This document shows, piece after piece, positions 2,708-34,119 of a stretch of 47,949 nucleotides of DNA. This DNA comes from Propionibacteriales bacterium. Lineage in GTDB: Bacteria; Actinomycetota; Actinomycetes; Propionibacteriales; Nocardioidaceae. The first letter of the stretch is position 1, and each line of letters starts with the position of its first letter. The translations under genes and the position numbers were made by a program. The stretch lies in the NCBI GenBank assembly GCA_009377795.1, contig WHTJ01000026.1, positions 1-47,949 on the forward strand. The letters are read 5' to 3'. The notes below the pieces were generated by a model, which saw only the letters and a list, made by a program, of their open reading frames with translations, made no database searches and was not told the DNA's origin.

Positions 2708-2790
2708 AACCATGGGGAGATGCCGCACGGCTTCCAGGTGGGCGGTTTGCGAGCACTATCGGCGGGCATTCGAAAGGCAGGACGACGGCG

Positions 2791-4083: not shown

Positions 4084-4084
4084 C

Positions 4085-4600: not shown

Positions 4601-4612
4601 GCGCACAAGGAC

Positions 4613-6365: not shown

Positions 6366-6390
6366 CTCTTCGGTCGTCACGTCCTGGGGC

Positions 6391-6480
6391 CCACCGTCTT
6401 CCGACCCAATCACCGAAGACGGTGGCGGATCCGGCTCGTTGACCGCTGTTTCCCGACCCAATGGCGGAGGACGGTGGCGG
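6391..6480 (+). repeat. duplicated hairpin repeat, probable terminator
   Basis: Copy 1 (6391-6425) is an 11-bp perfect stem, CCACCGTCTTC against GAAGACGGTGG, with a 13-nt loop. Copy 2 (6443-6480) repeats the loop and right arm with changes: CCGACCCAAT is shared exactly and GACGGTGGCGG recurs. Copy 2's stem is imperfect. Lying 25 bases after the hydrolase stop, copy 1 probably ends that operon, though there is no T-run. Confidence 0.5.
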
Positions 6481-7596: not shown

Positions 7597-7716
7597 CCGG
7601 CGTGAGCATGCGTAGAGAATTCTTGAATTCGCGTTAGAGAATCTGCCTGTTGTTCGGATCATCGCGCTCCGCGTACGTTATGGCTCAACGAAATTGCCTG
7701 TGACAGGGCGAAAAAT

Positions 7717-7777
7717 GGCCGCGGCAGGCTGGCACAGGCGTACCCGGCGTTTGGCTGTGCCAGCCTGCCTAGCGGCC
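7717..7777 (+). terminator. long GC-rich hairpin between lysR and the 7865 operon
   Basis: A 15-bp perfect stem, GGCAGGCTGGCACAG (7723-7737) with its complement at 7755-7769, is extended by GGCCGC/GCGGCC (7717-7722, 7772-7777) across a 2-nt bulge; the loop is 17 nt. No T-run follows on the plus strand. It could terminate lysR or act as a leader structure for the downstream operon, whose start is 88 bases away. A smaller palindrome, CCTGTGACAGG, lies just upstream. Nothing coding is visible in 7597-7864. Confidence 0.5.
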
Positions 7778-7864
7778 GCTGCGTGCCCGTAATGGGAGGT
7801 CCGACGTGGGACATCGAGAGCGCGATGCGGAGACTCCGATGTCCCTGATGCGCGGGGTTGACGG

Positions 7865-9064
7865 ATGACCGCGCTCGAGGGCGTGAAGGTGGTGGAGTTC
7901 GCCAGCTACGTGGCTGGTCCTTACACGGGCGCATTGCTGTCCGACCTCGGCGCGGACGTGATCAAGGTGGAGGCGCCCCCGCACGGTGACCCGTATCGCG
8001 GGTGGGCCACCGGCAACTACAGCAGCATGTTCTGCTCACTGAACCGCAGCAAGCGCAGCATCCTCGCCGATCTCAAATCCGTGTGTGGGTTGGAGGTCGC
8101 CCGGTCCCTGGTCGCCGACGCCGACATAGTCCTGGAGAACTCGCGACCCGGCGCGATGGAGCGGCTCGGACTCGGCTACGAGCAGATCACGTCAGAGAAC
8201 CCTGGCCTGATCTACTGCTCCATCACTGGCTTCGGACTGAGCGGTCCCGACCACCAGCGTCCCGGCTACGACACGGTCGGGCAGGCCATGAGCGGTCTGC
8301 TGAGTCTGCTGACCGACCTCGACGATCCCCAGCCGATGGGGATCTCGCTGTCGGATCACCTCGCCGGCTTGTTCGGGGCGTACGGGGTACTGGCGGCCTT
8401 GGCCGCGCGCCTCCGAACGGGTAAGGGCCAGCGAGTCGACACCTCGTTGCTGCAGTCCTCGACGACATTCCTTGCCGAGAACATGGCCCGGTTCATGCAT
8501 GACGGCGGGCAGCCACCGACGCGCCGGACGCGGGCACGCACGGCGCAGGTCTACGCGGTGCGTGACGAGTCGGGCGCTCCCTTCGTGGTGCACCTGTCGT
8601 CGCCGGACAAGTTCTGGCGGTCGCTGTTGCAGGTCATCGACCGCCGTGACCTCGTCGGCGACGAGCGATTCATCAACCGGGGACAGCGCATCGCGCACCG
8701 AGAGGACATCCAGGCCCTCCTGGACGAGGCGTTCGCGACCGGGTCGCGCACTAGGTGGCTCAAGCGGCTTTGGGATGCCGATGTTCCCGCGGCTCCGCTC
8801 AACACCCTGGACGACGTGATCAAGGACGAGCAGATCCGCCACCTCGGACTTGTGCAGGAGGTCGAACATCCCTCGGCGGGACGCATGCAGCTCCTGGGCA
8901 GCGGCGTCAATCTGCACGGTACACCGACGCGTCTTGGACCGGCGCCGATCGTAGGGGAGGACACCGAGCGCATCCTTGCCGAACTCGGATTTCCCGCGGA
9001 CTACCTCCCCGCCACCACACCCGACCGTGCTGTGGCCACCGCGCACCAGAACCGGGAGGACTGA
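7865..9064 (+). CDS. CaiB/BaiF family III CoA-transferase
   Basis: Family III CoA-transferase, exchanging CoA between an acyl-CoA donor and a free carboxylate through an aspartyl-CoA intermediate. The N-terminus LEGVKVVEFASYVAGPYTGALLSDLGADVIKVE is diagnostic. Further motifs are SLNRSKRSILADLKS, ENSRPGAMERLGLGY and CSITGFGLSGP. The predicted nucleophile is D164 in SLSDHLAG. Length 399 aa is normal. First gene of an operon: its TGA overlaps the ATG of the thiolase-like gene. It probably activates a pathway acid as its CoA ester. Closely similar genes occur at 12007 and 26972. Confidence 0.9.
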   Translation: MTALEGVKVVEFASYVAGPYTGALLSDLGADVIKVEAPPHGDPYRGWATGNYSSMFCSLNRSKRSILADLKSVCGLEVARSLVADADIVLENSRPGAMERLGLGYEQITSENPGLIYCSITGFGLSGPDHQRPGYDTVGQAMSGLLSLLTDLDDPQPMGISLSDHLAGLFGAYGVLAALAARLRTGKGQRVDTSLLQSSTTFLAENMARFMHDGGQPPTRRTRARTAQVYAVRDESGAPFVVHLSSPDKFWRSLLQVIDRRDLVGDERFINRGQRIAHREDIQALLDEAFATGSRTRWLKRLWDADVPAAPLNTLDDVIKDEQIRHLGLVQEVEHPSAGRMQLLGSGVNLHGTPTRLGPAPIVGEDTERILAELGFPADYLPATTPDRAVATAHQNRED

Positions 9065-10227
9065 TGTATCAACGCAGTGCCGCGATCGTCGGCGCCGCCC
9101 ACTCACAGCTCGGCGAGGTGCCCGGCTCTACCGCGATCGGCCTGATGGCCGACGCCGCAGTGGCCGCCGTCGTCGACGCCGGGCTGACGCCCTCCGACAT
9201 CGACGGAATCGTCGTACGCGGGCCCGACGACGAGTACTGCTTCCACCAGCAGCTCGGAGAGCGCCTGGGACTCAACGCTTCGTTCAGCACCAGCCTGGAC
9301 AACGGGGGCGCGAGCCAGTCGCTCGCCGTGATCCTCGCATCGCTGGCGATCGAGGCCGGGCTCGCCACCGCCGTGCTGTGCGGCTACGCGCGAAACTCGT
9401 GGACCCGGACCCGCCGCAGCGGCAGCCGCAACGCCCGGATGAACCAGTCCACCCACGCACGCATCCGCGAGTGGCGCGATTCGTTCGGGTACTTCGGCGA
9501 ACCGGCCACCCACGCCCTCGGCGCACAGCGCCACATGGCCACGTACGGCACGACCAAGGAACACCTCGGCCACGTTGCAGTCTCCGTGCGCGAGCATGCG
9601 ACCCGCAATCCACACGCGCAGATTCGGTGGCCGCTCACCATGGACGAGTACATGGACGGGCGCCCGATCACGGATCCGTTCGGTATCTACGACTGTTCGT
9701 TGCGCACGGACGGCGCTGGCGCGGTCGTCGTCACCGATGTCGCGCGTGCCAGGGACCTTCCGCACACGCCGGTGATCGTTCGCGGCTTCGGCAGCCAGAA
9801 CAATCTCCGAGGGTGGACCGTCGACGACCACATGGTGCAGACGGCGGCCAAGGCCAGCGGCGAATTGGCCTACCGCAGCGCCGACGTCTCGCCCTCCGAC
9901 ATCGACACGGCGCAGCTCTATGACTGCTTCACCTACATGCTCTTGGTGCAGATCGAGGACTACGGCTTCTGCGAGAAGGGTGAAGGCGGCGAGTTCATCT
10001 CCGCCGGAGCCCTCGGGCTGGACGGCGAGATCCCTACCAACACCTCGGGCGGACAGCTGTCCGAGGGCCACGTCGAAGGCATGTTGCAGGTGGTCGAGGG
10101 CGTCCGGCAGCTACGACACGAGTACCCAGCGGAGCGGCAGGTGACCGACGCCGAGCTGGCGTTGGTCAGCGGACATGGGGGCAACACCGTGTGTCACAGC
10201 ACGCTGATTCTGGAGCGTGGCCGATGA
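9064..10227 (+). CDS. thiolase-like (SCP-x/Ltp type) protein
   Basis: 387-residue thiolase-fold protein of the lipid-transfer-protein/SCP-x branch. The usual nucleophile Cys motif is replaced by SLDNGGASQSLA, and the C-terminal Cys region is SGHGGN, so neither thiolase Cys is present. The YDCFTYM motif and SEGHVEG are kept. It is followed with an ATGA overlap by a DUF35 partner. In steroid side-chain degradation, Cys-less Ltp2 proteins pair with DUF35 domains and act as retro-aldolases, so an acyl-CoA aldolase is a better guess than a thiolase. Start ATG 9064 overlaps the CoA-transferase stop. Confidence 0.82.
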   Translation: MYQRSAAIVGAAHSQLGEVPGSTAIGLMADAAVAAVVDAGLTPSDIDGIVVRGPDDEYCFHQQLGERLGLNASFSTSLDNGGASQSLAVILASLAIEAGLATAVLCGYARNSWTRTRRSGSRNARMNQSTHARIREWRDSFGYFGEPATHALGAQRHMATYGTTKEHLGHVAVSVREHATRNPHAQIRWPLTMDEYMDGRPITDPFGIYDCSLRTDGAGAVVVTDVARARDLPHTPVIVRGFGSQNNLRGWTVDDHMVQTAAKASGELAYRSADVSPSDIDTAQLYDCFTYMLLVQIEDYGFCEKGEGGEFISAGALGLDGEIPTNTSGGQLSEGHVEGMLQVVEGVRQLRHEYPAERQVTDAELALVSGHGGNTVCHSTLILERGR

Positions 10228-10697
10228 GCACGTCAGCCTCAGAGACCACGGCCGAATCGGTCGGTGCCCCGCGGACCATCCCGCGACCGACCTCCGAGTC
10301 CCGGTACTTCTGGGATGCCTGCGCACGGCACGAACTGGTCATCCAACGCTGCACGTCCTGCGGACGGTGCTGGTTTCCGCCGAGCAACCACTGCCAGTAT
10401 TGCTGGAGCGAGGACTTCGCCTGGACGCCGGTGTCGGGACGTGGGGAGCTGTACACCTTCACCGTGTTCCGCCGCGCGTATGCGTCAGAGCTGGTCGAAC
10501 AGATTCCGTACGTCGTCGGGGTCGTCGAACTTGAAGAAGGCCCACGACTGATCACCAACATCACCGAGTGCGAGACCGCCCACGTGCGTGTGGGTATGCC
10601 CGTCGAGGTGGTGTTCAACGACATCGCGGAGGGCTTCACGTTGCATGCCTTCCGACCGCGAGAAGACCCGCAATCTCCTGGGACGGGAGCGGTGTAG
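10224..10697 (+). CDS. DUF35 Zn-ribbon/OB-fold protein, partner of the thiolase-like protein
   Basis: 157 residues. An N-terminal helix (ESRYFWDACARHELVIQRC) leads into a rubredoxin-like zinc ribbon with C43, C46, C57 and C60 (CTSCGRCWFPPSNHCQYC), then an OB-fold (GRGELYTFTVFRRAY ... IPYVVGVVELEEGPRLITNI). DUF35 proteins form complexes with thiolase-like enzymes and contribute to acyl-CoA binding. The start ATG 10224 overlaps the preceding TGA, so the pair is probably made in equal amounts. A longer frame from 10191 exists, but homology begins at 10224. Confidence 0.85.
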   Translation: MSTSASETTAESVGAPRTIPRPTSESRYFWDACARHELVIQRCTSCGRCWFPPSNHCQYCWSEDFAWTPVSGRGELYTFTVFRRAYASELVEQIPYVVGVVELEEGPRLITNITECETAHVRVGMPVEVVFNDIAEGFTLHAFRPREDPQSPGTGAV

Positions 10698-10724
10698 CGC
10701 TCTCACGAAAGGCTTGGAGGAACG

Positions 10725-11582
10725 ATGGCAAAGATCGTATCGATGATCGGTACCACGCATCACCCGTGGTATCACGCGAAGACGTCCAAGCCCGAGTCGG
10801 AACTCACTGAAGACGCGCGGAATCTGCTGGGGTGGTCGGCGCGGGTGCAGGAGTCGTTCCGCAGCACGAACCCCGATGTCGTGGTGATCGTGGCGAGCGA
10901 TCACTTTCATCAGTTCTTCTACAACAACATGCCCCAGTTCCTCATCGGCCGGATGAAGTCCTACCAGGGCACGTTCTACAACGAAGAGCGGGAGTTCGGC
11001 CTGCCGAGGGTCGAGCTGGGCGGCGACCGGCGGCTCGCGACGGACCTGGTCGAGGCCGGCTATGAGAACGGCTTCGACTTCGCGTTCTCCGACGAGATGC
11101 GTCTCGACCATGCCTGCGTGGTCCCGAGCCTGATCAGCCAGCCGTCGTTCGAGATCCCCGTCGTACCGCTGCTGACCAACTGCGGCGCGCCGCCGATCCC
11201 GCCGGGTCAGCGGTTCGTCGACCTCGGCAAGGCGCTGCGCAACGCGATCGAGTCGTCCAACGCTGTCGACCGCGTGGCGGTGGTGGTCAGCGGCAACCTG
11301 TCACTGGAGGTGGGCGGACCCGAGCAGATGATGCCCTACTCCGTGGACCCCGAGTTCGACGCCCTGGCAATGGACTGGCTGACCGATCGGGACTACGAGT
11401 CGCTGACGGCCGAGTCGACGTACGAGCGCCTGATGTTGCACGGCAACACGTCCTTCCAGTTCCTGAACATGTTGACGATGGCCTCGATGCAGGAGGACAT
11501 GACCTTGATCCACGCGGAGGCCATGAAGCGGCGCGGATCGCCCGCACCATGCTTCATCTACGAATCGGAGGTGCAGGAATGA
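10725..11582 (+). CDS. LigB-like class III extradiol dioxygenase subunit (altered active site)
   Basis: 285-residue homologue of the catalytic beta subunit of protocatechuate 4,5-dioxygenase. Iron-ligand positions equivalent to LigB H12 and H61 are kept (H13 in GTTHHPWY; H60 in ASDHFHQF), as is LDHACVVPS. By my alignment from memory, the catalytic His of TGGMSHQL is Leu194 (SGNLSLEVGG), and the third iron ligand, Glu of GVELVMW, is Gln245 (GNTSFQFLNML). It is therefore either a dioxygenase with modified metal chemistry or a related non-oxygenative enzyme. GGAGG precedes ATG 10725. Its stop overlaps the LigA-like start. Confidence 0.78.
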   Translation: MAKIVSMIGTTHHPWYHAKTSKPESELTEDARNLLGWSARVQESFRSTNPDVVVIVASDHFHQFFYNNMPQFLIGRMKSYQGTFYNEEREFGLPRVELGGDRRLATDLVEAGYENGFDFAFSDEMRLDHACVVPSLISQPSFEIPVVPLLTNCGAPPIPPGQRFVDLGKALRNAIESSNAVDRVAVVVSGNLSLEVGGPEQMMPYSVDPEFDALAMDWLTDRDYESLTAESTYERLMLHGNTSFQFLNMLTMASMQEDMTLIHAEAMKRRGSPAPCFIYESEVQE

Positions 11583-11980
11583 TCGACCATTACGCAGTCA
11601 ACAAGTTCCTGTACGACACCGACCGGAACGAGCATCTCGTGCGCCGGTACATCGACGACCCCGACGCGTACGTCGACTGGTACTTCGACGAGCGGTTGAG
11701 CCGCCTGCTCGACAACGAGAGCGAACAGTCGGCCGTCGAGTCTCCCGACGAGGCCACGCGTACCGCGCTCAAGACTTATGACTGCGCGATGTTGTATCGG
11801 GACGGGGCCCACCCCTTCATCCTGTGGACCCTGATGCTGCCGATCATCGAGGCGAAGCTCGCGTCGGGGGAGTTCGTGGTCGGTGAACAGCCGGAGAACG
11901 CCCGGGCCGAGAACCGCAAGCCGATGGCGTATTACCGGGAACGAATCCTGCCGCACGGTCGGCCGGACTTCCGCTACTAG
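11579..11980 (+). CDS. LigA-like small subunit
   Basis: 133 residues resembling the alpha subunit of LigAB extradiol dioxygenases: AVNKFLYDTDRNEHLVRRYIDDPDAYV at the N-terminus and the hallmark TYDCAMLYRDGAHPFILWTL. In LigAB this subunit caps the active site of the beta subunit. Start ATG 11579 overlaps the LigB-like TGA, which supports a heteromer. The order here is B then A. The C-terminal half (EFVVGEQPENARAENRKPMAYYRERILPHGRP) is not part of the usual LigA core that I recognise. Confidence 0.75.
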   Translation: MIDHYAVNKFLYDTDRNEHLVRRYIDDPDAYVDWYFDERLSRLLDNESEQSAVESPDEATRTALKTYDCAMLYRDGAHPFILWTLMLPIIEAKLASGEFVVGEQPENARAENRKPMAYYRERILPHGRPDFRY

Positions 11981-12006
11981 CCAACGAGTCCGGAGGTAGG
12001 CAGGAC

Positions 12007-13155
12007 ATGTCAGGCGGCCCTCTCGCCGGCGTCACCGTGATCGAGTGCGCCTCGTACATCAGCGGACCCTACGCGGGCTTGCTGCTGGCGCAGCTCGGCG
12101 CGGACGTCGTGAAGGTGGAGGCGCCTGGCGGCGGTGACTCGTTCCGCCGGTGGGGCGGCACCAGTCGCCGCACCCGCACCCGCCCGCAGTTCGCATCCCT
12201 GAACTACGGCAAGCGCAGTGTGACGATCGACCTTCGCGAAACCGCGGGCAAGGCCGCATATCTCGATCTGATCGAACACGCCGACGCGCTGGTCGAGAAC
12301 TTCCGGCCGGGCACGTTGGACCGCTTCGGCGTCGGCGAGGCCTCGGTGCGGGAACGCAACCCCGGCATGGTGTACTGCACCGTCACGGGCTTCGGACCCA
12401 CGGGCCCGTACGCGACACGTCCCGCCTACGACGCGATCGTGCAGGCGTTCAGTGGGCTGTGGAGTCTCCTATCGCCGATCTCCGAGCCGCGTGCGGTCGG
12501 CCCGGCGATGTCGGATGCGTTGGGCGGGCTCCACGGAGCCCTCGCGGTGGTCGCCGGACTGGCCGGCGCCGCCCGCGGGCAAGACTCCCCGCGCCGCTTC
12601 GATGTGAGCATGCTCGCCTCGTCATTGAGCTTGCTCGGCTCGACGGTGGCGAACTACGCGGAGTCCGGCGAGCTGGAGACGCCGTACTCCCGCGGCCGCC
12701 GTTCGCACTCGCTCGCCTTTCTGGCCGGTGACGGCCGACCCCTGGCGGTGCACCTGTCGTCACCGGAGAAGTTCTGGGTGCGTCTCACCGACGTCGTCGG
12801 CAGAGCCGACCTCCGCGAGAACGCGCGCTTCAGCACCTATCCGGCGCGGCTGGAGCATTTCGAGGAGTTGCGCGCCGAGCTCGAGTCGGCCTTCACCGCC
12901 AAGCCGCGGCACCAGTGGCTGGAGCAGCTGTACGAAGCAGACGTCCCTGCGGCGCCCCTGTACACGATCGACGAGGTGGTCACCGACCCGCACGTGCGGG
13001 AGACCGGCTCGATCAGGGATGCCACGGGACCGGCGGGAGAGCGCTTTCTCGTTCCGCGAACAGCGATCCGCTTCGCCGGGGATCTCGAGGCCTGCTCGAT
13101 GGAGGTGCCTCCACTGGGCGGGCGACTACATATCGAGGAGTTGACCACACGGTAG
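12007..13155 (+). CDS. CaiB/BaiF family III CoA-transferase
   Basis: 382 residues, with family motifs LAGVTVIECASYISGPYAG, LGADVVKVEAPGGGDSFRRWG, LNYGKRSVTIDLR, ENFRPGTLDRFGV and VTGFGPTGPYATRPAYD. The predicted catalytic Asp is D170 in AMSDALGG. Two CoA-transferases bracket the thiolase/DUF35/LigBA genes, which suggests that one loads CoA onto the substrate and the other moves it off a product, or that they form a heteromer as some succinyl-CoA:aromatic-acid transferases do. The 26-base gap after the LigA-like gene contains GGAGGTAGG before ATG 12007. Confidence 0.9.
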   Translation: MSGGPLAGVTVIECASYISGPYAGLLLAQLGADVVKVEAPGGGDSFRRWGGTSRRTRTRPQFASLNYGKRSVTIDLRETAGKAAYLDLIEHADALVENFRPGTLDRFGVGEASVRERNPGMVYCTVTGFGPTGPYATRPAYDAIVQAFSGLWSLLSPISEPRAVGPAMSDALGGLHGALAVVAGLAGAARGQDSPRRFDVSMLASSLSLLGSTVANYAESGELETPYSRGRRSHSLAFLAGDGRPLAVHLSSPEKFWVRLTDVVGRADLRENARFSTYPARLEHFEELRAELESAFTAKPRHQWLEQLYEADVPAAPLYTIDEVVTDPHVRETGSIRDATGPAGERFLVPRTAIRFAGDLEACSMEVPPLGGRLHIEELTTR

Positions 13156-13202
13156 CGAGGGACCGCGCGAGGGCTCCACGACAAGGCTGGAGGGCCGCAA
13201 AG

Positions 13203-14303
13203 ATGAAACAGCGTAAGTTATTGCTCTTCCTCGCCGTGATGCTGACCGGCGGGCTGTTAGCGGCCTGCGGCGGTGATGCCGGAGGCGGTGAAGCCAGCGA
13301 CGAAGGTGTGGTCACCCAGAGGGAGGGTGAGAGCCGGCAGGACTACATCGACCGGCTCTACGAGGCGGCCCAGGAAGAGGGCGCCGTGTCGTACTACCAG
13401 TCTGCCGATGAGGAGGAGCTGCAGGCGATCGTCGACTCGTTCACCGAGATGTTCCCCGAGGTGGAGTTCGAGCCGGTGAGCGCCACCAGCGGCACGATCC
13501 TCGAACGAGCGCTGCTCGAATCCGAGTCCGGCAATGTGCAGGGCGACGTTTACGGAGGCGGATCCGGAGACCAGGTAGCGCTGGAAGAGGCCGGGGCAAT
13601 TGAGGAGTACCGGCCGGTCAACGAGGCCGACGTCGCCGACGAGTTCAAGATGGACGGCCCCTACATCGCCGTGGGCTATCTCTCGTACCATCCGGCGTTC
13701 AACACCGACCTGGTCGACGAGGCGGACCTCCCCGACGACTGGATGGGCTACTGCGACGAAGAGTGGCACGGCGAGCTGGCCATCGACCAGGAAGGCGCGG
13801 AGTGGATAGCCGGGCTCCTGGCCGGCATGGGGGAAGAGGACGGCATGGAGTTCCTCGAGTGCCTCGCCGAGAACGAGCCGCGTCTGGTTCGTGGGTCGAC
13901 CACCCGTACGGAGCTGCTCGCGTCCGGCGAGTTCGGGGTCATGCTCGACGGCTACGGCCACCGGCTGTGGGAATTCGAACAGGAGGGCGCACCGATTCGC
14001 ACCCAGCGGCCGAGTCCCGCGCCCTTGCCGGTCGTGCTCGACATGGCCAGCATGCTCAGGGATGCACCCCATCCGAATGCCGCCCGGCTGCTGTTGGAAT
14101 TCTTCTTGACGCCTGAAGGCCAGGACGTCTTCTTCGCCCAGAACAAGGCCGGGTCGCTCGCCGGCGGCCAGCAGGAGCATCCGTACGGCGAGCTGATCGA
14201 GGACGCTGAGCTCGAGGTGCTCGAACCCGGTGCAGCCGACTTCGACGAGGCGTTCCAGATCTTCGGTGACACGTTCCTCGGCGGCGGAGCGCCCGCTCCG
14301 TAG
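13203..14303 (+). CDS. ABC transporter solute-binding lipoprotein (ferric/AfuA-FbpA type)
   Basis: 366 residues. Signal peptide with lipobox LLAAC (Cys22), Gly/Glu-rich linker, then a class-II binding-protein fold: RLYEAAQEEGAVSYYQSADEEELQAIVDSFTEMFPEVEFE, VQGDVYGGGSGDQVALEEAG, YLSYHPAFNTDLV and HPNAARLLLEFFLTPEGQDVF. Family members bind Fe(III), phosphonates, polyols or carboxylates, so the ligand is open; a metal-chelating aromatic acid would suit the neighbours. ATG 13203 has GGAGGG 8 bases upstream. It is followed by a hairpin and then the cognate permease and ATPase, making a complete importer. Confidence 0.9.
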   Translation: MKQRKLLLFLAVMLTGGLLAACGGDAGGGEASDEGVVTQREGESRQDYIDRLYEAAQEEGAVSYYQSADEEELQAIVDSFTEMFPEVEFEPVSATSGTILERALLESESGNVQGDVYGGGSGDQVALEEAGAIEEYRPVNEADVADEFKMDGPYIAVGYLSYHPAFNTDLVDEADLPDDWMGYCDEEWHGELAIDQEGAEWIAGLLAGMGEEDGMEFLECLAENEPRLVRGSTTRTELLASGEFGVMLDGYGHRLWEFEQEGAPIRTQRPSPAPLPVVLDMASMLRDAPHPNAARLLLEFFLTPEGQDVFFAQNKAGSLAGGQQEHPYGELIEDAELEVLEPGAADFDEAFQIFGDTFLGGGAPAP

Positions 14304-14321
14304 GAGTCACAGTGAACGAGC

Positions 14322-14355
14322 CATCGCGCCGGCGACCCGTCGCGCCGGCGCGATG
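14322..14355 (+). promoter_or_regulatory. intercistronic hairpin between binding protein and permease
   Basis: Perfect 13-bp stem CATCGCGCCGGCG / CGCCGGCGCGATG with an 8-nt loop, 18 bases after the binding-protein stop. Such hairpins commonly protect the upstream mRNA end and attenuate read-through, so the binding protein is made in excess over the permease. Confidence 0.55.
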
Positions 14356-14387
14356 ACCCACAACACCAGGGAGGCCGAGGTGGCAGG

Positions 14388-16187
14388 TTGACGGTCCAAA
14401 CCCCGAGGCCCGCGACTGCGAGCGAGCCGCCGGCTTCCGCAGCGCCGCGACGACGAGCACCACGCACGTTGCGCGGGTCACGCGACCCCCGCAAGATCAT
14501 CTTCATCGCCGTCGCGGCGATCCTGGTCTGGCAGATCGCCATCCCGCTCGCGATCCTGCTGTGGGGTTCTGTCAGCGACTCCCGGCCCGGCGCCGGCGAC
14601 TTCTTCTCGGTTACGTCCTTCACGCTCGACAACTTCGCGCGTGCCGTCGAGGGCGGGCGCACAACCGACGTGCTGATCAACACCACGATATTTGCGACCG
14701 GCACAACAGCCCTGGCGTTCGTCCTCGGCACCTATCTGGCGTGGGTGGTGGAGCGCACGAACACGCCCTTCCGTGCGTTCATCACGATCATGATGATCCT
14801 GCGCCTGATCCTTCCGGGCATCCTGACCACCATCTCGTGGATCTTCCTGGCGAGCCCTCGAGTGGGAACGCTCAATCACTGGGCCATGGACATCTTCGGA
14901 CTCAGCGAGCCACCACTGAACATCTACTCCATGGCCGGGATGATCTGGGTCGAGGCGATGGATATCCTGCCGCTGGTATTCCTGCTGATGGGTGCCGCGC
15001 TGCGGTCGATGGATCCGTCCCTGGAAGAGGCCTCTCTGGTCTCGGGTAAGGGGCTGCTGAGGACGACATCCCGCATCACGCTGCCGTTGATCCTCCCGGC
15101 GATTCTCGCCACGATCATCCTGGTGCTCATCCGCGGTATCGAGACGTTCGAGACGCCCGCGCTGATCGGCATCCCCGCACAGAAATTCACCTTTGTCGTG
15201 GAGATCTGGCGGCAGACTTCGACAACGCCAACCGACTTCGGCCTGGCGGCCGTCTACGCGGTGCTGATCCTTGCGTTCTGTTCGTGCCTGCTGTGGCTGT
15301 ACAACCGCATGACCCGGCACGCCGACATGTTCGCCGTGATCAGCGGCAAGGCGTTCCGTCCCCGTCGTACCGACCTCGGTGGCATGCGCTGGGTGACCTG
15401 CGGAGCCTCGATGGTGATCATCATGTTCTCGCTCGGCCTGCCGATGATCATTCTCCTGTGGGCGAGTTTCTACCCGCCGTACCGCGGGTTCCAGCCCATC
15501 ACCATGGATGCCGTCCCGCTGCTGTCCTGGGACAACTATCGAGAGGTTCTGGACAACGATCTCGTCCAGCGGGCATTCGTGAACTCAACGTTCCTCGGTC
15601 TCACCTCCGCCACAGTGACGGTCCTCCTGATCACGGTCGTGGCGTGGATCACCGTGAAGACCAAGATCCGCGGTCGCAAGTGGCTGGACCACCTGGCCTT
15701 CGCCCCGATCGCGATTCCCGCGATCACGATGGGTGTGGCGTTCCTCTGGCTGTACCTGACGCTGCCGATTCCCGTGTACGGCACGATTTGGATTCTCTTA
15801 CTGCTCTACATCGCTCGCTTCACCGCGGTTGCGATGCGCATCATGTCCGCATCGATGACCCAGGTGAACGACGAGCTGCACGAAGCGGCGGAGGTTGCGG
15901 GTGCCAGCTGGCTGCGGTCGTTCCGCACGGTGACGATGCCGCTGCTACGGCCGGGAATGCTCGCCGCCTGGATATTCGTGCTGGTGCACGCGTATCGCGA
16001 GTTGTCCGCATCGCTGATCGTGTATTCACACGGCAACGAGCCGATCGGTGTGGCGATCTTCGACATCTGGGAGAACGGCAGTTACGGCCTGCTCTCGGCC
16101 TTCGGAATACTCGTCGTGTTGGCCCTGGTCTTCTTCTCCATCGTCGCCCGTGTCGTGAGCGGTCGGTACGGCGTGAAAGACGAATAG
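14388..16187 (+). CDS. ABC transporter permease, fused double-domain (FbpB/ThiP type)
   Basis: 599 residues with two permease domains in one chain, the usual state of ferric-type importers. A basic cytoplasmic N-terminus of about 45 residues is followed by about six helices in each half. The two EAA loops that dock to the ATPase are EEASLVSGKGLLRTTSRITLPL (from about residue 212, split by the fold) and EAAEVAGASWLRSFRTVTMP (from about 497). I use TTG 14388, with GGAGG 14 bases upstream and no better in-frame ATG before the first helix. It works with the binding protein at 13203 and the ATPase at 16243. Confidence 0.9.
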   Translation: MTVQTPRPATASEPPASAAPRRRAPRTLRGSRDPRKIIFIAVAAILVWQIAIPLAILLWGSVSDSRPGAGDFFSVTSFTLDNFARAVEGGRTTDVLINTTIFATGTTALAFVLGTYLAWVVERTNTPFRAFITIMMILRLILPGILTTISWIFLASPRVGTLNHWAMDIFGLSEPPLNIYSMAGMIWVEAMDILPLVFLLMGAALRSMDPSLEEASLVSGKGLLRTTSRITLPLILPAILATIILVLIRGIETFETPALIGIPAQKFTFVVEIWRQTSTTPTDFGLAAVYAVLILAFCSCLLWLYNRMTRHADMFAVISGKAFRPRRTDLGGMRWVTCGASMVIIMFSLGLPMIILLWASFYPPYRGFQPITMDAVPLLSWDNYREVLDNDLVQRAFVNSTFLGLTSATVTVLLITVVAWITVKTKIRGRKWLDHLAFAPIAIPAITMGVAFLWLYLTLPIPVYGTIWILLLLYIARFTAVAMRIMSASMTQVNDELHEAAEVAGASWLRSFRTVTMPLLRPGMLAAWIFVLVHAYRELSASLIVYSHGNEPIGVAIFDIWENGSYGLLSAFGILVVLALVFFSIVARVVSGRYGVKDE

Positions 16188-16242
16188 GTCGAGTATCGAT
16201 GTCAGAGCTGGGTGATTTGATGTTCTCAATCGGGAGCGCGCG

Positions 16243-17379
16243 ATGATCGAAGTGACGAGCCTTCTAAAAACGTTCGAAGGTGGGGCTGTCCGTGCTGTGG
16301 ACGATATCAGCTTCACGGTACCGGCCGGATCTGTGCTCACGCTGCTTGGCCCGTCCGGGTGTGGCAAGACGACGACCATGCGCTCGATCGCCGGTCTGGA
16401 GAAACCGGACTCTGGTGAATTGAAGGTAGGCGAGAAGGTCGTGTACTCGTCTCGGCAGAAGGTGAACCTTCGACCGAACCGGCGGAACGTCGGCATGGTT
16501 TTCCAGTCGTACGCGATCTGGCCCCACATGACGGTATTCGACAACGTGTCGTACCCGCTGAAGGGCGAGACCGATAGGGCAGCGTTGCGGGAACGCACCG
16601 TGCGCGCGCTGCGCCTGGTCGATCTCGAGCACCTGGCGGATCGTCGGGCACCGAAACTCTCGGGCGGTCAGCAACAGCGCGTCGCGCTGGCTCGCGCGCT
16701 CGTCGCTGAGCCGGATGTGCTCCTTCTGGATGAACCACTCTCGAACCTCGACGCCAAGCTGCGCGACACGATGCGCAAGGAGATTCGCGAGCTGCAGCAG
16801 TCGCTCGACATCACGACTCTGTATGTCACCCATGACCAGTCGGAGGCTCTGGCTATCTCCGACCTTGTCGCCGTGATGTCGCAAGGCCAGATCGTGGACT
16901 TCGGGGATCCGGAACGGATCTACTCCAAGCCCCGTTCCCGCGCCGTAGCCGACTTCATCGGCATGGCGAACGTGGTCGACGTGTCGGGGATACGGATCTC
17001 GGACGGCTGGTGGCTCGGCGATTCGGGGCTCGGTCCGTTGGTCTTCCAGGGAGAGGGGGACACGCCGCACTCGTGCAGCGTGCTCATCCGCCTGGAGGAC
17101 CTGCAGCTGGTCGGCCCGGAGGAGGCCGACGAGGCCAACGTGTGGCCGGGCAACGTGGTTTCCGTGCTGTACCTCGGCGGCTACTGGGACTGCGTCATCG
17201 ACGTCAACGGTCAGCGGCTTCGGAGCCAGGTGCCGCGACGGCAGCGCCCATCGGCGGGCGATCGCGTCTACGTGCGGGTCTCGGCCCGGTCCTGCTACGT
17301 CCTTCCCGAGGACGAGAGCCAGCCCATTCTCGACGCGGACGCAGAAGAGCATCTTGCCGCCGAGAGCAGCACATCATGA
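16243..17379 (+). CDS. ABC transporter ATP-binding protein (FbpC/PotA type)
   Basis: 378 residues. Walker A GPSGCGKTT (36-44), Q-loop MVFQSYAIWPHMTV, signature LSGGQQQR (about 139), Walker B VLLLDEPLSNLD (about 158) and switch His in VTHDQSE (about 195). The C-terminal third (from about 240) is a TOBE-like beta domain typical of carbohydrate/iron/opine importers (PRSRAVADFIGMANV). There is no FbpC-like regulatory Cys/His cluster that I can see. It ends with an ATGA overlap with the MDR dehydrogenase, tying uptake and metabolism in one transcript. Confidence 0.93.
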   Translation: MIEVTSLLKTFEGGAVRAVDDISFTVPAGSVLTLLGPSGCGKTTTMRSIAGLEKPDSGELKVGEKVVYSSRQKVNLRPNRRNVGMVFQSYAIWPHMTVFDNVSYPLKGETDRAALRERTVRALRLVDLEHLADRRAPKLSGGQQQRVALARALVAEPDVLLLDEPLSNLDAKLRDTMRKEIRELQQSLDITTLYVTHDQSEALAISDLVAVMSQGQIVDFGDPERIYSKPRSRAVADFIGMANVVDVSGIRISDGWWLGDSGLGPLVFQGEGDTPHSCSVLIRLEDLQLVGPEEADEANVWPGNVVSVLYLGGYWDCVIDVNGQRLRSQVPRRQRPSAGDRVYVRVSARSCYVLPEDESQPILDADAEEHLAAESSTS

Positions 17380-18434
17380 GGGCCGTCGTACTGCGGGACT
17401 TCGGCGGGCCCGAGGTCCTCGACCTCGAGGAGGTGCCCGACCCCACACCCGAGGCGGGCGAGGTGGTCGTGAAGGTACACGCCGTCACGGTGAACCGGAC
17501 GCTGGACCTCAAGGTCCGGGAGAACGGCACCGCTCGTGGCGTCACCCTGCCGCACGTCCTCGGCGTCGATCCGGCGGGTGTCGTCGTAGCCCTCTCCGGC
17601 GACGTCCGGTCGGTCGAGATGGGGGCGCGGGTCGCGGTTCTTCCGCACATTCGCTGTGGCCAGTGCGAGTTCTGCACGATGGGGCGCGAGGAGCTGTGTC
17701 CGCGCTCGCGCCATATCGGCGTGCACCGGTGGGGCGGTTACGCCGAGTACGTCTCGGTGCCCGCCAAGAACCTCGTGCCGCTACCCGACGAGCTTCCGTT
17801 CGCGGACGCCGCGGTGATCCTGCGGCACGCCCCGACGGCGTTCAACCTGCTTCGCGGCCTGGCCGGGCTCAGGGCGGGTGAGTGGGTGCTCGTGATGGGC
17901 GCCACGGGAGGGCTGGGTGCGGCCGGCATGCAAGTGGCGAAGCTGCTCGGCGCCACGGTGATCGCCGGAGCGGGCGCGACTGCCCGCGTCGACTCGGCGC
18001 TGGCCAACGGAGCGGACCACGGTGTCGACTACCGCACAGACGACCTCGCCGAGGAGGTCGAGCGCCTCACCGGCGGACGCGGCGTCGACGTCGTGTTCGA
18101 GAACATCAGCGATCCGGCGCTGTGGCCCAAGGCGTTCGCATCCCTGGCGCACTCAGGTCGGCTGGTGACCGCCGGCGCGCACGGCGGAGGCACGGTGGAG
18201 CTCGACGTCCGGAGACTTTACGGCCGCCGGCTGCGGATCATCGGCGGCGCCGGTGCATCCAAGCCGGACATCGCCAGCGCCCTCGATGCCGCGGCGCAAG
18301 GCAAGCTCCGCGCCGTGATCGATCGGATCATGCCGCTGCACGCGGCCGCCGATGCACACCGGCTGTTCGAGAAGGAGGTCGTGCTCGGCAAGGTTGTGCT
18401 GGATCCGACGATGGCGCGAGGAGACGCGGGATGA
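17376..18434 (+). CDS. zinc-containing MDR alcohol dehydrogenase/quinone reductase-like
   Basis: 352-residue medium-chain dehydrogenase. MRAVVLRDFGGPEVLDLEEVPDP opens the GroES-like domain. The structural zinc lobe is CGQCEFCTMGREELC (C94, C97, C100, C108). The catalytic-zinc Cys seen in true alcohol dehydrogenases is absent (VTVNRTLDLKVREN at that place), so the enzyme may reduce enoyl or quinone substrates rather than oxidise alcohols. The NAD(P) motif GATGGLGAAG is at about 174-184. Start ATG 17376 overlaps the ATPase stop; the end overlaps the next gene (ATGA). Confidence 0.85.
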   Translation: MRAVVLRDFGGPEVLDLEEVPDPTPEAGEVVVKVHAVTVNRTLDLKVRENGTARGVTLPHVLGVDPAGVVVALSGDVRSVEMGARVAVLPHIRCGQCEFCTMGREELCPRSRHIGVHRWGGYAEYVSVPAKNLVPLPDELPFADAAVILRHAPTAFNLLRGLAGLRAGEWVLVMGATGGLGAAGMQVAKLLGATVIAGAGATARVDSALANGADHGVDYRTDDLAEEVERLTGGRGVDVVFENISDPALWPKAFASLAHSGRLVTAGAHGGGTVELDVRRLYGRRLRIIGGAGASKPDIASALDAAAQGKLRAVIDRIMPLHAAADAHRLFEKEVVLGKVVLDPTMARGDAG

Positions 18435-19333
18435 CGCGCACCCTACGACTGACGACCTTCTCCCGGCCGAGTGCCCTGCTCGCCGCCCAGTACCGCGGTT
18501 ATCTGGAGGAGGTCGGGCTTGCCCTGGACGTCGAGGACGCCAGAGGCTCGCGTCCGCAGCTGGAAGGGATGCTCGCGGGCCGCTGGGACCTCGCCCACAC
18601 CAACGCCGACAACGTGATGAAGTTCCGTGCGTTCGGGCACACCGACCTGTTCATCTTCCTCGTCATCGACCGAGGCATGGGGCAGAAGCTGATCGTGCAG
18701 CCCCACATCAAGGATTGGGAGGACCTGCGCGGAGGGCCGGTGGGCGTGGACGCGCCGGACTCCGGCTATGCGTTCGTGCTGTACGAGCTGCTGCGTCGTC
18801 ATGGTCTGGAGCAGGGCGACTACGAGGTGGTGCCGCTGGGAGCCACCGTGTACCGGTTGCACGGGCTGCAGCGCGGGGAGATCAACGCCGGGCTGCTCAG
18901 TCACCACCACGAGGCCACTGCGCTCCAGGACGGGTTCCACATCCTTGCGGACACGCGGGACCACTTCGCGAGGCACGCCGGGGTCACGGCGGCTGCGACG
19001 TATTCGTGGGCGGAGCTCAACCAGGACGCTTTGTACAAGTACGCGAGTGCGCTGTACGCGGCGGCCAGATGGACGCAGGATCCGGCCAACCATGACGAGG
19101 TGGTGAAGGTCGTCGCTGAGGGTCGCGGTATCGACGAGTACCAGGCCGAACGAGTGCTGGAGATCGAGAAGAGCAGTCGTACAGGCACGATCTCGTCGAT
19201 CGAGGAGGTCGAGGACAGCCTCGCCGCATCGGCCGCGTTGCGTGCGGAGTACACGGGCACGCAACCGACCGACTACTTCGACCCACGGGCGATGAGCAAG
19301 GCCCTGGCAGCACTCGGCCACGACGCGAGCTGA
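18431..19333 (+). CDS. signal-less NMT1/THI5- or DHP-decarboxylase-like binding-protein-fold protein
   Basis: 300 residues with a type II periplasmic-binding-protein fold (LAAQYRGYLEEVGLALDVEDA, LEGMLAGRWDLAHTNADNVMKF, WEDLRGGPVGVDAPDSGYAFVLYELL) but no signal peptide or lipobox: the protein begins MTRTLRLTTFSRPSALL directly at the domain. It is therefore probably cytoplasmic. Homologous folds without export signals include 4,5-dihydroxyphthalate decarboxylase and THI5-type enzymes, so a decarboxylase or lyase role is as likely as ligand binding. ATG 18431 overlaps the dehydrogenase stop, and the MFS gene follows 3 bases after its stop. Confidence 0.7.
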   Translation: MTRTLRLTTFSRPSALLAAQYRGYLEEVGLALDVEDARGSRPQLEGMLAGRWDLAHTNADNVMKFRAFGHTDLFIFLVIDRGMGQKLIVQPHIKDWEDLRGGPVGVDAPDSGYAFVLYELLRRHGLEQGDYEVVPLGATVYRLHGLQRGEINAGLLSHHHEATALQDGFHILADTRDHFARHAGVTAAATYSWAELNQDALYKYASALYAAARWTQDPANHDEVVKVVAEGRGIDEYQAERVLEIEKSSRTGTISSIEEVEDSLAASAALRAEYTGTQPTDYFDPRAMSKALAALGHDAS

Positions 19334-19336
19334 GCT

Positions 19337-20551
19337 GTGCCGGCCACGCCACCTCTGGGGGAGTCCGCCACCACGTGGCGACAGGCCTTCACGAGCCGCT
19401 GGGCCCTCTTATCGCTCGCGGCTCTGCTCTACTGGATCGCCTCGCATTCCCTGCGGCCATTCGTGGTGTTGCGGCTCGACACCCTCGGCGCCTCGGCCCA
19501 GGAGGTCGGTCTGGTCGCCGCGGCCTACGCGTCTTTGGCGCTCCTCCTCGCGATCCCGGGCGGACGCGCCATCGACCGCCTGGGCAGCACGCGCGTGCTC
19601 TACGGTTCGCTGATCGCGATGGTCGGCATCGGAGCCGCGTACGCGTTCGCCGACACGATCCCGCAGCTGTTCGCCCTGCAGATGATCAACGGCGTGGTCG
19701 AGCTGGGCGTGTGGCTGTCCTTGCAGACGCTGGCGAGCCACGCGGGCACCGGTGACGTCCTCGCACGGCAGCTGTCCATGTTCTCGTTCGCGTGGGGACT
19801 CGGGATCGCGATCGGCCCGACGGTGGGCGGGCTCGTCTACGAAAGCATCGGTTTCCCGGGCCTCGCCTTCACCTACAGTGCGCTGGCGGCGGGGATTCTC
19901 ATCGCCATGTGGTTCGCTCCGGCCGGGCCGGCGGGCATGCGGGCAAGAGGAGGTGGGCTCGGCCGCGACGCCCGGCAGACCGCGAGGCAGCCCGCGATTC
20001 GCAGCGTACTGCTGTCGAGCTTCGTAGCGATGTACATCATCTCGATCAAGAACACCTTCTACCCGCTGTCGCTGGAGGAACGGGGAATCACCGAGACCCG
20101 CATCGGCGTCCTGTTGTCGATCATGGGAGTGGCGTCCCTCGGAGTACGCGTGCTCGTGCCGATGTTATTGCGGCGCTTCGGTCCCCGGTTCGTACTCGTC
20201 GTCGGAACGAGCGTCGGCGTCGTCGGCATCAGCCTGACACCATGGATGCTGCACCCCGTGCTGCTGGTGGCGGCCGCAGTCTTCACCGGTGCGGGCTACG
20301 GATCGAACCCTCCGGTGGCGATGCAGCTCCTGGGCGAGCACAGCGCCGAGTCGAAGCGGGGGCTCGTCATGGGTCTACGCGCGGCTTCGACCCGTCTCGC
20401 CCAAGTGCTGCAGCCCCTCGTGTTCGGATCGCTGGCGGCTGCAGCGGGAACCGGATTGGCGTTCCCCATCTCGGGCGTGATCCTGGCAGCGATGACCCTG
20501 CGGACGCGTCGTGACCTGCGGGCCCTGAGTTCCCGTCCTGGTGCTGGTTGA
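19337..20551 (+). CDS. MFS transporter
   Basis: 404 residues, about 12 hydrophobic helices. The loop after helix 2 reads GGRAIDRLGSTRVLYG, the D-R-x-G signature of the major facilitator superfamily, and a second-half copy reads VPMLLRRFGPRFVLV. Substrate unknown; either uptake of an aromatic acid or efflux of a product fits. GTG 19337 is 3 bases after the previous stop. Its last 185 bases are covered on the opposite strand by the extended rpiB reading frame. Confidence 0.85.
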   Translation: MPATPPLGESATTWRQAFTSRWALLSLAALLYWIASHSLRPFVVLRLDTLGASAQEVGLVAAAYASLALLLAIPGGRAIDRLGSTRVLYGSLIAMVGIGAAYAFADTIPQLFALQMINGVVELGVWLSLQTLASHAGTGDVLARQLSMFSFAWGLGIAIGPTVGGLVYESIGFPGLAFTYSALAAGILIAMWFAPAGPAGMRARGGGLGRDARQTARQPAIRSVLLSSFVAMYIISIKNTFYPLSLEERGITETRIGVLLSIMGVASLGVRVLVPMLLRRFGPRFVLVVGTSVGVVGISLTPWMLHPVLLVAAAVFTGAGYGSNPPVAMQLLGEHSAESKRGLVMGLRAASTRLAQVLQPLVFGSLAAAAGTGLAFPISGVILAAMTLRTRRDLRALSSRPGAG

Positions 20552-21104
20552 TGCGCTCAGCGACGCTTTCTCCTTCGCGCCGAGATTGCACATCTGTCCG
20601 GTTTCGACCTGGGCCAGATGTGCAATCTCGGCGCGAAGACGCAATCTCAGGCCGGGAGAGTGGCTCGCCGCGCTCCAGCGCGGCGATCTGTTCGACACGG
20701 CGCTGGTGGCGGCCGGCCTTGAACGGCGTGGTCAGCCAGATCTCGGTGATCCGTTCCGCCAGCCCGGCCGCCACGATCTTGGCGCCCATCACCAGCACGT
20801 TGGTGTCGTTGTGGGCGCGCGCGATCTCGGTCGTGTACAGGCAATGGCAGAGCCCGGCTCGTACACCGGGGATCTTGTTGCACGCGATCTGCTCACCGGA
20901 GCCGGTGCCGCCGATCACGATGCCGCGATCCGCGTGACCCTCGACGACCCGGTGTCCGACGTCGGCGCAGAGCGGCGGGTAGTCCACGGTCTCGGTGTCG
21001 TGCGTACCGCGATCGTCCACCTCGTGGCCCTGGCCGGTCAGCCAGTCGATGAGGTGCGACTTCAGGGCCAAGCCGTTGTGGTCGGCCGCGATGGCGATCC
21101 GCAT
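20367..21104 (-). CDS. rpiB: RpiB/LacAB sugar-phosphate isomerase with a palindromic-element C-terminal extension
   Basis: Residues 1-146 form a complete RpiB: AADHNGLALKSHL, GTGSGEQIACNKIPGVRAGLCH, AHNDTNVLVMGA, FKAGRHQRRVEQIAALE. The E. coli-type catalytic Cys is Gly here, and Glu71 (GSGE) matches the Glu base of the mycobacterial type. It interconverts ribulose-5-phosphate and ribose-5-phosphate or related sugar phosphates. The frame then continues about 100 residues: S157-E177 is encoded by the palindromic element (SRRDCTSG ... DVQSRRE), and the rest is antisense to the end of the MFS gene. The stop is at 20367-20369. The extension is low-complexity and unlikely to be catalytic. Confidence 0.85.
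   Translation of the reverse strand: MRIAIAADHNGLALKSHLIDWLTGQGHEVDDRGTHDTETVDYPPLCADVGHRVVEGHADRGIVIGGTGSGEQIACNKIPGVRAGLCHCLYTTEIARAHNDTNVLVMGAKIVAAGLAERITEIWLTTPFKAGRHQRRVEQIAALERGEPLSRPEIASSRRDCTSGPGRNRTDVQSRREGESVAERINQHQDGNSGPAGHDASAGSSLPGSRPRWGTPIRFPLQPPAIRTRGAAALGRDGSKPRVDP
20574..20637. repeat. palindromic repeat element, copy 1 (inside rpiB)
   Basis: Perfect 23-bp inverted repeat: the left arm starts TTCGCGCCGAGATTGC (20574-20596), the right arm is its complement (20615-20637), with an 18-nt spacer. A degenerate extra arm (GCAATCTCAGGCCGGG) follows at about 20641. It lies between the MFS stop and the rpiB domain and is translated as part of RpiB. Confidence 0.9.
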
Positions 21105-29625: not shown

Positions 29626-30088
29626 GGAGGTGCTGGAGATCCTCGACCTGGTCGACCGCTCGGACGTGGAGTATCTCGAGCTCGAGGTGGGACGCACCAG
29701 GCTGGTCGCCGACAAGACCGGGACGGGAATGTCGCGCCGAGATTGCACATCTGGTCGACCAGATGTGCAATCTCGGCGCGAGGATGAGACGGCGCCCGCG
29801 GAGACGGCGCCCGCGGAGCCGACGTCCGGCGATTCCGACCTGGTGACGGTCGACGCTCCCGTCGTCGGGGTCTTCTACCGTTCGCCGGAGCCTGGTGCGC
29901 CGCCGTTTGTGGAGGTCGGGATGCAGGTGGACGAGGACACCACGGTGGGCCTCGTCGAGGTGATGAAGATGTTCAACAGCGTGCCGGCCGGAGTACGCGG
30001 TGAGGTGGTGGAGCTCTTCGCCGAGAACGAGGCCTTCGTCGAGTACGGCCAGCCCTTGATGGCGATCCGGCCGCAGGACGCGGGGTGA
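29609..30088 (+). CDS. biotin carboxyl carrier protein with a palindromic-element insertion
   Basis: 159 residues. The N-terminal domain (HEEVLEILDLVDRSDVEYLELEVGRTRLVADK) is typical of AccB-type carriers. The C-terminal biotinyl domain (from about 75) has VDAPVVGVFYRSPEPGAPPFVEVG and the biotinylation motif EVMKMF with K120. Between them, where carriers have a flexible Ala/Pro linker, residues 42-58 are encoded by a perfect 50-bp palindrome. GTG 29609 lies inside the carboxyltransferase gene (17-base overlap) after AAGGGAG. It presumably shuttles carboxyl groups for 28141 and possibly to the HyuA/HyuB enzyme next door. Confidence 0.88.
   Translation: MELTHEEVLEILDLVDRSDVEYLELEVGRTRLVADKTGTGMSRRDCTSGRPDVQSRREDETAPAETAPAEPTSGDSDLVTVDAPVVGVFYRSPEPGAPPFVEVGMQVDEDTTVGLVEVMKMFNSVPAGVRGEVVELFAENEAFVEYGQPLMAIRPQDAG
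29732..29781. repeat. palindromic repeat element, copy 2 (in-frame inside the BCCP gene)
   Basis: Perfect 50-bp palindrome with no spacer. It starts TCGCGCCGAGATTGC, is centred on GGTCGACC (SalI site GTCGAC), and ends with the exact complement. It begins exactly on codon 42 of the carrier gene and reads SRRDCTSG ... DVQSRR with no stop. Confidence 0.95.
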
Positions 30089-32202: not shown

Positions 32203-33971
32203 ACGCCGAGCCGACAGTGGACGCGATCACCGTCGAGGTGATCGGCCAGAGCCTGGCCGGGATCGTCCAGGAGATGCAGAATTCGCTTTTTTGCACGGGA
32301 TATTCCACGATCATCCGCGAGTCGCGGGACGCGAGCTGCGCGATCCTCGATCCGTCCGGCCGGGTGCTGTCACAGTTCACCGTGCTGCCGTTGCACCTCG
32401 GCGCGTTCCCGGCCTGTGTGGAGGCTCTGCTGCGGTTCTACGGGGCCGAGGAACTGCGCGACGGTGATGCGTACGTCGTCAACCACCCGTACCACGGCGG
32501 CAGCCCGCACGCGCCGGACATGGCCGTCGTCTCGCCGATCGTGGTGGACGGTGAGCTGTTCGGCTTCAGCGCGAGCATCGCGCACAAGAGTGACATCGGC
32601 GGCCTGGTCCCCGGCAGCAGCTCCGGCCAGGCGCGGGAGATCTTCCACGAGGGGATCATGGTGCCGCCGGTCCTGTTCTTCCGCGAGGGCGCGATCGTGC
32701 GTGAGGTCGAGACGCTGCTGCGGGCGAACAGCCGTACGCCCGAGCTGGTGCTGGGCGACCTGCGTGGTCAGGTCGGTGCGACCGCCCTGGGTGTGGCGCG
32801 GATCGGCGAGCTGTGCGGTAGGCACGGCGCGGCGACGGTGGCGGCCGCCGGCGAGCGGCTGTATCTGCAGACTGAGGAGAGGGTACGGGCGGCGATCGCG
32901 GAGTGGCCGGACGGCGAGTTCGATGGGTCCGCGACGCTGCACAGCGAGGGCCTGGAGGGTGGGCGTCCGGTCTGGGTGCGGGTGACCGTGCGGATCGAGG
33001 GCCGGCACGCGACGTTCGACTTCTCGGCCTCCGACGACCAGGTGAGCGGCCCGTACAACATCCGGCCGCCGCTGGTGCGCGCGGTGTGCAGCTACGCGCT
33101 GAAGTGCCTGATCGATCCCGAGTTGCCGTCGAACCAGGGTCTGAGCCTGGCGGCCGGCCTCGTGGTGCGTCCGGGCTCGGTGCTGTCTCCCGAGATGCCG
33201 GCACCGGTGAACACGTACATGCCGATCGCGAACGTGGTCGCGGAGGCGGTGTTCGACGCGCTGGGGACCGTTCTGCCGCGGGCGCGTATCGCCGAATCCA
33301 GTCGCGGGGTGAGCGGCACGCTGTCGCACATCACGCCGGGTCGGCAGTACCCGCTCGTTCAGTACGAGCTGCCGGCCGGGGCGGTGGGTGCGCGGGCCGG
33401 CAAGGACGGCGTCTCCGCGTCGAAATCCCATGTGGCGAACGGAACCATCACCCCGGTGGAGATCCTGGAGTCGGAGTTCCCGGTGGAGCTGGTGCGGTTC
33501 GAGCTGGTGCCCGACTCGGGTGGTGCGGGGCGCTTCCGGGGCGGACTGTCCTACGTGCGCGAGTACCGGATGCACGGGGAAGGGCAGTTCTCCGTACGCG
33601 GTGGTCACCTCCGTACACCGCCACGCGGGAAGGACGGCGGCGAGCCCGGCGGCAGCGGGGCGACGGTCGTCAACCCGGGTACGCCGGAGGAGCGCCGGGT
33701 GAAGGCCGGCGACGGGAACGTCCGGCTGCATGCGGGTGACGTTCTGCGCCGCGAGATGACCGGTGCCGGTGGTTACGGGGACCCGTTCGCCCGCGAGGTG
33801 GATCGGGTCCTCGACGACGTGCGGGAGGGTTACGTCTCCCCCGAGGCCGCACGCGGGTTGTACGGCGTCGTCGTACGGCGCAAGGCGCACACCTGGGTCG
33901 TGGACGAGACGGCCACCGCCGAGCTGCGCGCCGGCCGCCCGGGGACGGGCAGAAGCGCAATCTCGACGTGA
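32199..33971 (+). CDS. hydantoinase B/oxoprolinase-type subunit (HyuB family)
   Basis: 590 residues: EVIGQSLAGIVQEMQNSLFCTGYSTIIRESRDASCAILDPSGRVLSQ, HLGAFPACVEALL, GDAYVVNHPYHGGSPHAPDM and PYNIRPPLVRAVCSYALKCLIDPELPSNQGL are classic HyuB. The C-terminus SVRGGHLRTPPRGKDGG and GAGGYGDP is complete. ATG 32199 overlaps the HyuA stop (ATGA). The last codons and the TGA (33969-33971) are supplied by a mutated arm of the palindromic element. The NHPYxGGxHxPD block holds the metal-binding residues of the acetone carboxylase/hydantoinase B group. Confidence 0.9.
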   Translation: MNAEPTVDAITVEVIGQSLAGIVQEMQNSLFCTGYSTIIRESRDASCAILDPSGRVLSQFTVLPLHLGAFPACVEALLRFYGAEELRDGDAYVVNHPYHGGSPHAPDMAVVSPIVVDGELFGFSASIAHKSDIGGLVPGSSSGQAREIFHEGIMVPPVLFFREGAIVREVETLLRANSRTPELVLGDLRGQVGATALGVARIGELCGRHGAATVAAAGERLYLQTEERVRAAIAEWPDGEFDGSATLHSEGLEGGRPVWVRVTVRIEGRHATFDFSASDDQVSGPYNIRPPLVRAVCSYALKCLIDPELPSNQGLSLAAGLVVRPGSVLSPEMPAPVNTYMPIANVVAEAVFDALGTVLPRARIAESSRGVSGTLSHITPGRQYPLVQYELPAGAVGARAGKDGVSASKSHVANGTITPVEILESEFPVELVRFELVPDSGGAGRFRGGLSYVREYRMHGEGQFSVRGGHLRTPPRGKDGGEPGGSGATVVNPGTPEERRVKAGDGNVRLHAGDVLRREMTGAGGYGDPFAREVDRVLDDVREGYVSPEAARGLYGVVVRRKAHTWVVDETATAELRAGRPGTGRSAIST

Positions 33972-34004
33972 GAGCAACGGCCAGATGTGCAATCTCGGCG
34001 CGAG
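33957..34004. repeat. palindromic repeat element, copy 3 (end of hyuB)
   Basis: Two arms in direct orientation: a mutated one at 33957-33972 (GCAATCTCGACGTGAG) and a full one at 33982-34004 starting CAGATGTGCAATCTCGGC. The first arm differs from the consensus by changes that create TGA, the hyuB stop. It is thus a rearranged or decayed copy spanning the gene end. Confidence 0.8.
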
Positions 34005-34119
34005 GGCGGGGCCCTTTGCATCGATTGCGACAATGTCCGACTCCGTGTGGGTGGGACCGTCTCAGTAATGTGGACGCGGCCCTTCTCCGGGTTCGGGATG
34101 CACACCAGTGTCGGTGCGT

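Follow-up and report, generated by a model that had tools for sequence, protein, structure and literature searches.

Probable loss of the rpiB stop codon at a rearrangement joint marked by a palindromic element in an actinobacterial genome

In the window, the 47,949-nt stretch of DNA analyzed here, the rpiB gene probably lost its stop codon at a rearrangement joint marked by a palindromic repeat element, because the right edge of a 14-kb gene block is the palindrome at the end of rpiB. The stop loss is in itself a modest event, and the element family to which the palindrome belongs is the more novel part.

Results

The rpiB ORF (20367-21104, minus strand) consists of 245 codons. Its RpiB domain comprises codons 1-149 (20658..21104, minus strand) and ends with ALERGEPL, as judged from the PF02502 match, the ends of the relatives, and the AlphaFold model. 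The product scored as a member of the LacAB-RpiB isomerases, with matches above the cut-offs to Pfam LacAB_rpiB PF02502 (residues 3-140, 169 bits, cut-off 24.7) and TIGR01120 (147 bits, cut-off 138.65). The Pfam, NCBIfam, and PDB matches all end within residues 140-147, with the RpiB chains in PDB aligning to residues 1-147 at most, and residues 1-150 were modeled with pLDDT mostly above 90. The enzyme domain is intact. The usual, though not defining, size of RpiB is ~145-160 aa with the end after the last helix, a size that the 245-codon frame exceeds. Stops fall at codons 145-157 in every one of the 27 tabulated relatives, and those without the element are ~150 aa long, so the length comparison called for by the sequence-only reading of this DNA came out in its favor. 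The endings among the relatives include ALERGESLS-stop (the closest one, 82% identical and 150 aa), GEPLG-stop, and GEPLV-stop; the window reads ALERGEPLS-RPEIASSRRDCTSG... and then enters the palindrome. Leu149 is the last residue clearly common to the relatives, and Ser150 matches the final residue of the closest one. That earlier reading had placed the end of homology at about residue 146, which holds for the domain end (145-150) but not for the shared sequence, since the latter reaches Leu149/Ser150. There is a second rpiB-like gene in the genome, on contig C9, and it may relax the constraint on the gene in the window.

Downstream of the domain, the ORF coordinates agree with the earlier description of a frame that runs to residue 245 through the palindrome and then antisense to the last 185 bases of a major facilitator superfamily (MFS) gene (20367..20551, minus strand), the stop codon being at 20367-20369. 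The tail (codons 151-245; 20370..20654, minus strand) had no match in Pfam or PDB. It had been called compositionally odd, and it is: the coding log-odds per codon was -0.42 in the tail vs +0.29 in the RpiB body, and GC3 was 0.58 vs 0.91. AlphaFold predicted it to be disordered, without secondary structure. In this GC-rich genome, 29-41% of the frames followed from the end of a gene have no stop for at least 96 codons, and the length of the tail is by itself unremarkable; the missing stop, the repeat, and the synteny break are the parts not attributable to chance. The tail probably represents a disordered appendage that is neither selected nor functional. That it might instead be a functional, selected extension is scarcely credible: the part encoded by the element does use the VQSRRE frame, as do the other genic copies (p ~0.0005 for eight copies under random frames), but the strongly negative codon score, the low GC3, the predicted disorder, and the mostly antisense position relative to a conserved transporter all argue against selection.

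The element at the rpiB end (20573..20638) is a two-arm palindrome with 27-nt arms, 96% complementary, around a 12-nt gap, and its predicted RNA hairpin has an energy of -54 kcal/mol. It starts within a few codons of the point where the relatives of RpiB end (~150 aa). Next to it is a possible decayed outer half-unit (20640..20652, minus strand), GCCTGAGATTGC vs the consensus GCCGAGATTGC, whose local alignment was better than that of 99.2% of shuffled flanks; GAGATTGC is present in only 2 of 276 outer flanks. This candidate half-unit contains an out-of-frame TGA (20649-20647), which is 13 nt from the element and inside the usual stop-to-element distance of the family. In the relative at locus L067, CTCATCCCGGGCTGA is found at the site where the window reads CTCTCCCGGCCTGA.

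The joint is also a break in synteny. In ~28 actinobacterial loci, including one in G009, a genome of the same family, the rpiB gene and an alpha/beta hydrolase gene are arranged tail-to-tail, and in several of these loci the two stops are only a few bases apart. The orthologue of this hydrolase gene is at 5517..6365 (plus strand) in the window, where its upstream neighbors are colinear with L066 and L067. Between it and rpiB lies a 14-kb block (6709..20551, plus strand) of 12 genes that are colinear with contig C277 of G009 (tblastn to L304/L305, 71-91% identity, order kept). Its last gene encodes the MFS transporter (PF07690; 19337..20551, plus strand), which has its own stop intact and is 80% identical to its counterpart on C277; there, the MFS gene ends against an amidohydrolase gene instead. 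The right edge of the block is the palindrome against the last codons of rpiB. Because the adjacent order of hydrolase and rpiB is widely distributed, we infer that the block moved into this site. No close relative with the same rpiB-element-MFS joint was found. Recombination between elements as the cause of the block position was unsupported, as neither the hydrolase gene (6365) nor the amidohydrolase gene (26877) is followed by a copy. A hairpin-like inverted repeat, CACCGTCTTC...GAAGACGGTG, lies at 6370-6480, soon after the hydrolase stop and at the left edge of the block.

These observations suggest the following course. A 14-kb block with the MFS gene and an element at its end would have been placed between hydrolase and rpiB, a position given by synteny, and the joint would have removed or frame-shifted the rpiB stop. 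Since the element has no stop in the rpiB frame, translation would continue across it, next run antisense to the MFS gene, and end at a chance stop 95 codons on. The sequence-only reading had the element part the domain from its stop. The ~150-aa relatives that lack the element, the position of the element within a few codons of their end, and the non-coding-like tail are consistent with that claim; the joint, however, is also the edge of the block, so a rearrangement, rather than a simple hop of the element, probably did it.

We favor, with somewhat better than even confidence, the reading that the joint, or the decayed outer half-unit, replaced the stop in combination with the rearrangement. 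It is rather unlikely that the element already stood 13 nt behind the TGA at 20649-20647 and that a later 1-nt deletion, or another small indel, immediately ahead of this native stop shifted and thereby opened the frame. Such an indel would fit the family, in which 12-14 nt is a common distance, and the near-match to the gene end in L067, from which the window is one base short; but the codons up to Leu149/Ser150 match the relatives in frame right to the joint, a chance stop in another frame within 10-20 nt is not rare, and the TGA overlaps the apparent decayed half-unit. One added base would bring the same TGA into frame, and the genome is a draft in 182 contigs, which together raise the thought of a one-base assembly or sequencing error hiding the stop of a true RpiB of ~151-152 aa. 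We consider such an error improbable, as the region has no long homopolymer and comparable element-derived ends and fusions occur in other genes of the genome.

Replacement of the stop at the joint, the preferred reading, involves an element of which the source genome (G000, 4.58 Mb) has many copies: a pattern search allowing up to three mismatches found 424 arms vs none for the reversed control pattern. Placement was surveyed in 1.84 Mb, of which 0.77 Mb was nearly whole contigs picked among known copy carriers and the remainder lay around known copies. The 203 clusters in this part comprised 63 between convergent, 103 between tandem, and 16 between divergent genes, 13 overlapping called genes, and 8 at edges; copies were enriched between convergent genes. 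Of the intergenic copies next to the 3′ end of a gene, 48% start 10-20 nt after a stop codon, vs 6% with random intergenic placement. The family (~50-66 bp) marks gene 3′ ends in this actinobacterium. Two-arm copies are mostly 52 or 62-64 nt long, and compensatory changes between the arms occurred in 54 cells vs 24.5 expected, and 500 partner shuffles gave at most 36. Stops were found in only 0-3 of the 65 two-arm copies per frame in each of the six frames, and only 2% of shuffles were open in all six.

In a DNA search of a 396-genome phylum sample and 198 family genomes, G000 was the one genome with clear copies, and G009 had a sister variant. The variants are genome-specific, with A at arm position 9 in G000 and G in G009; all 45 arms in the G009 loci read carry the variant GAGGTTGCAC. 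At the G009 loci L133, L135, L136, and L139, the sister family shows the G at position 9 together with a compensating change in the other arm, and is arranged as tandem arrays of half-units with a 32-nt period. Rfam yielded nothing in the window, and a literature search for the arm sequence returned unrelated papers only. Two tandem half-units are also present in the window (33947..34008), and the hydantoinase-B gene (32199-33971) has its stop inside the first; this stop seems to have arisen through decay of a half-unit, from GGCGCGA to GACGTGA.

Copies were also found in frame inside genes. The second copy in the window, a perfect 25+25 palindrome (29732..29781), encodes SRRDCTSGRPDVQSRRE in the linker of a biotin carboxyl carrier protein (BCCP; gene at 29609-30088), which matched TIGR00531 at residues 6-154 with a score of 107.8 bits, short of the curated cut-off (115.2). 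On contig C159 of G000 (L226), an MCC-like biotin carboxylase (2737-4845) and BioD (17881-18756) each carry an in-frame copy; their PDB alignments are interrupted at the element, the PDB relatives have no insert there, and the carboxylase of G009 is without it. An FdrA-like ORF carries two in-frame elements, and in a CoxM-CoxS fusion (G000 C53 24298-25737; L209:4298-5737) the FAD and 2Fe-2S subunits of CO-dehydrogenase type are one ORF across the element. An IclR regulator on C67 has the element at its C-terminus. In eight in-frame cases, including rpiB, translation of the last arm gives (V/L)QSRR(E/G); a GT87-like ORF in L241, with arms in the other orientation, was left out of this count. 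In-gene matches of a scan allowing four mismatches (GpsA on C46, L241 11460, and L246) were set aside as probably chance single-arm matches. Because copies sit in frame in the BCCP, carboxylase, BioD, FdrA-like, and CoxM-CoxS genes, their sequences imply, short of proof, that ribosomes and polymerase can pass the hairpin in the source genome.

Discussion

We tentatively propose, at slightly less than even confidence, that these copies represent an undescribed actinobacterial family of coding palindromes that is stop-free in six frames, is directed to the 3′ ends of genes, and has repeatedly altered proteins. If so, a mobile palindrome remodels gene ends in this lineage, giving peptide inserts in enzymes, a gene fusion (CoxM-CoxS), and new C-termini (rpiB and IclR), with rpiB as a clear example of stop loss. 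Rickettsia and Wolbachia are the main organisms from which coding palindromes are known, and there the tolerance of these elements may be due to genome decay. A family that has hundreds of copies in a 4.6-Mb actinobacterium, is stop-free in all frames, and is placed shortly after stop codons offers a second independent system for studying the entry of mobile repeats into proteins and their effects on the ends of genes.

The nearest counterparts are the palindromic elements of Rickettsia (RPE; Ogata et al., 2000), of which PMC2229807 and PMC10969869 give accounts. As judged by organization and description, RPE and their Wolbachia analogue resemble the present family in being dispersed palindromes that lie between genes as well as in frame in conserved protein genes (here BCCP, the MCC-like biotin carboxylase, and BioD), with the frame of the host enzyme kept. 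On the other hand, RPE are 105-150 bp vs 50-66 bp here. Other differences from RPE are that most copies here are stop-free in all six frames and mostly lie 10-20 nt behind stop codons, with tandem half-units, and that the host is a 4.6-Mb GC-rich actinobacterial genome.

Intrinsic terminators share with the family a strong hairpin soon after stop codons and enrichment between convergent genes; however, whichever direction is read, the 12 nt following the hairpin are rich in G and A, purines in place of a U-tract, and an identification with terminators was rejected on this feature. Unlike terminators, copies also lie within genes whose transcription has to proceed past them. Among bacterial MITEs, those with coding capacity include ERIC, YPAL, and the Neisseria 107-bp element (PMC2229807). 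They, too, are small elements with inverted repeats; they can become fused in frame to genes of the host and may be located behind upstream genes. Assignment to MITEs was rejected with respect to target-site duplication, as the direct repeats flanking 65 copies were not above shuffled pairings and none was at least 4 nt long. We know of no partner transposon for the palindrome family.

REP/BIME sequences are palindromes as well, short and extragenic; they are found at the 3′ ends of genes, are enriched where genes converge, and have genome-specific variants. They differ from the present family in that their GTAG/CGTC tag was not seen here and that copies here occur in frame within genes. A REP/RAYT system was rejected because the sole Y1_Tnp matches are of the IS605 type, beside TnpB and without element copies nearby. 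The IS605-type TnpA at C26:3672-4038 of G000 (L299 and L300) is split over two frames and lies beside TnpB-like and integrase-type transposase ORFs.
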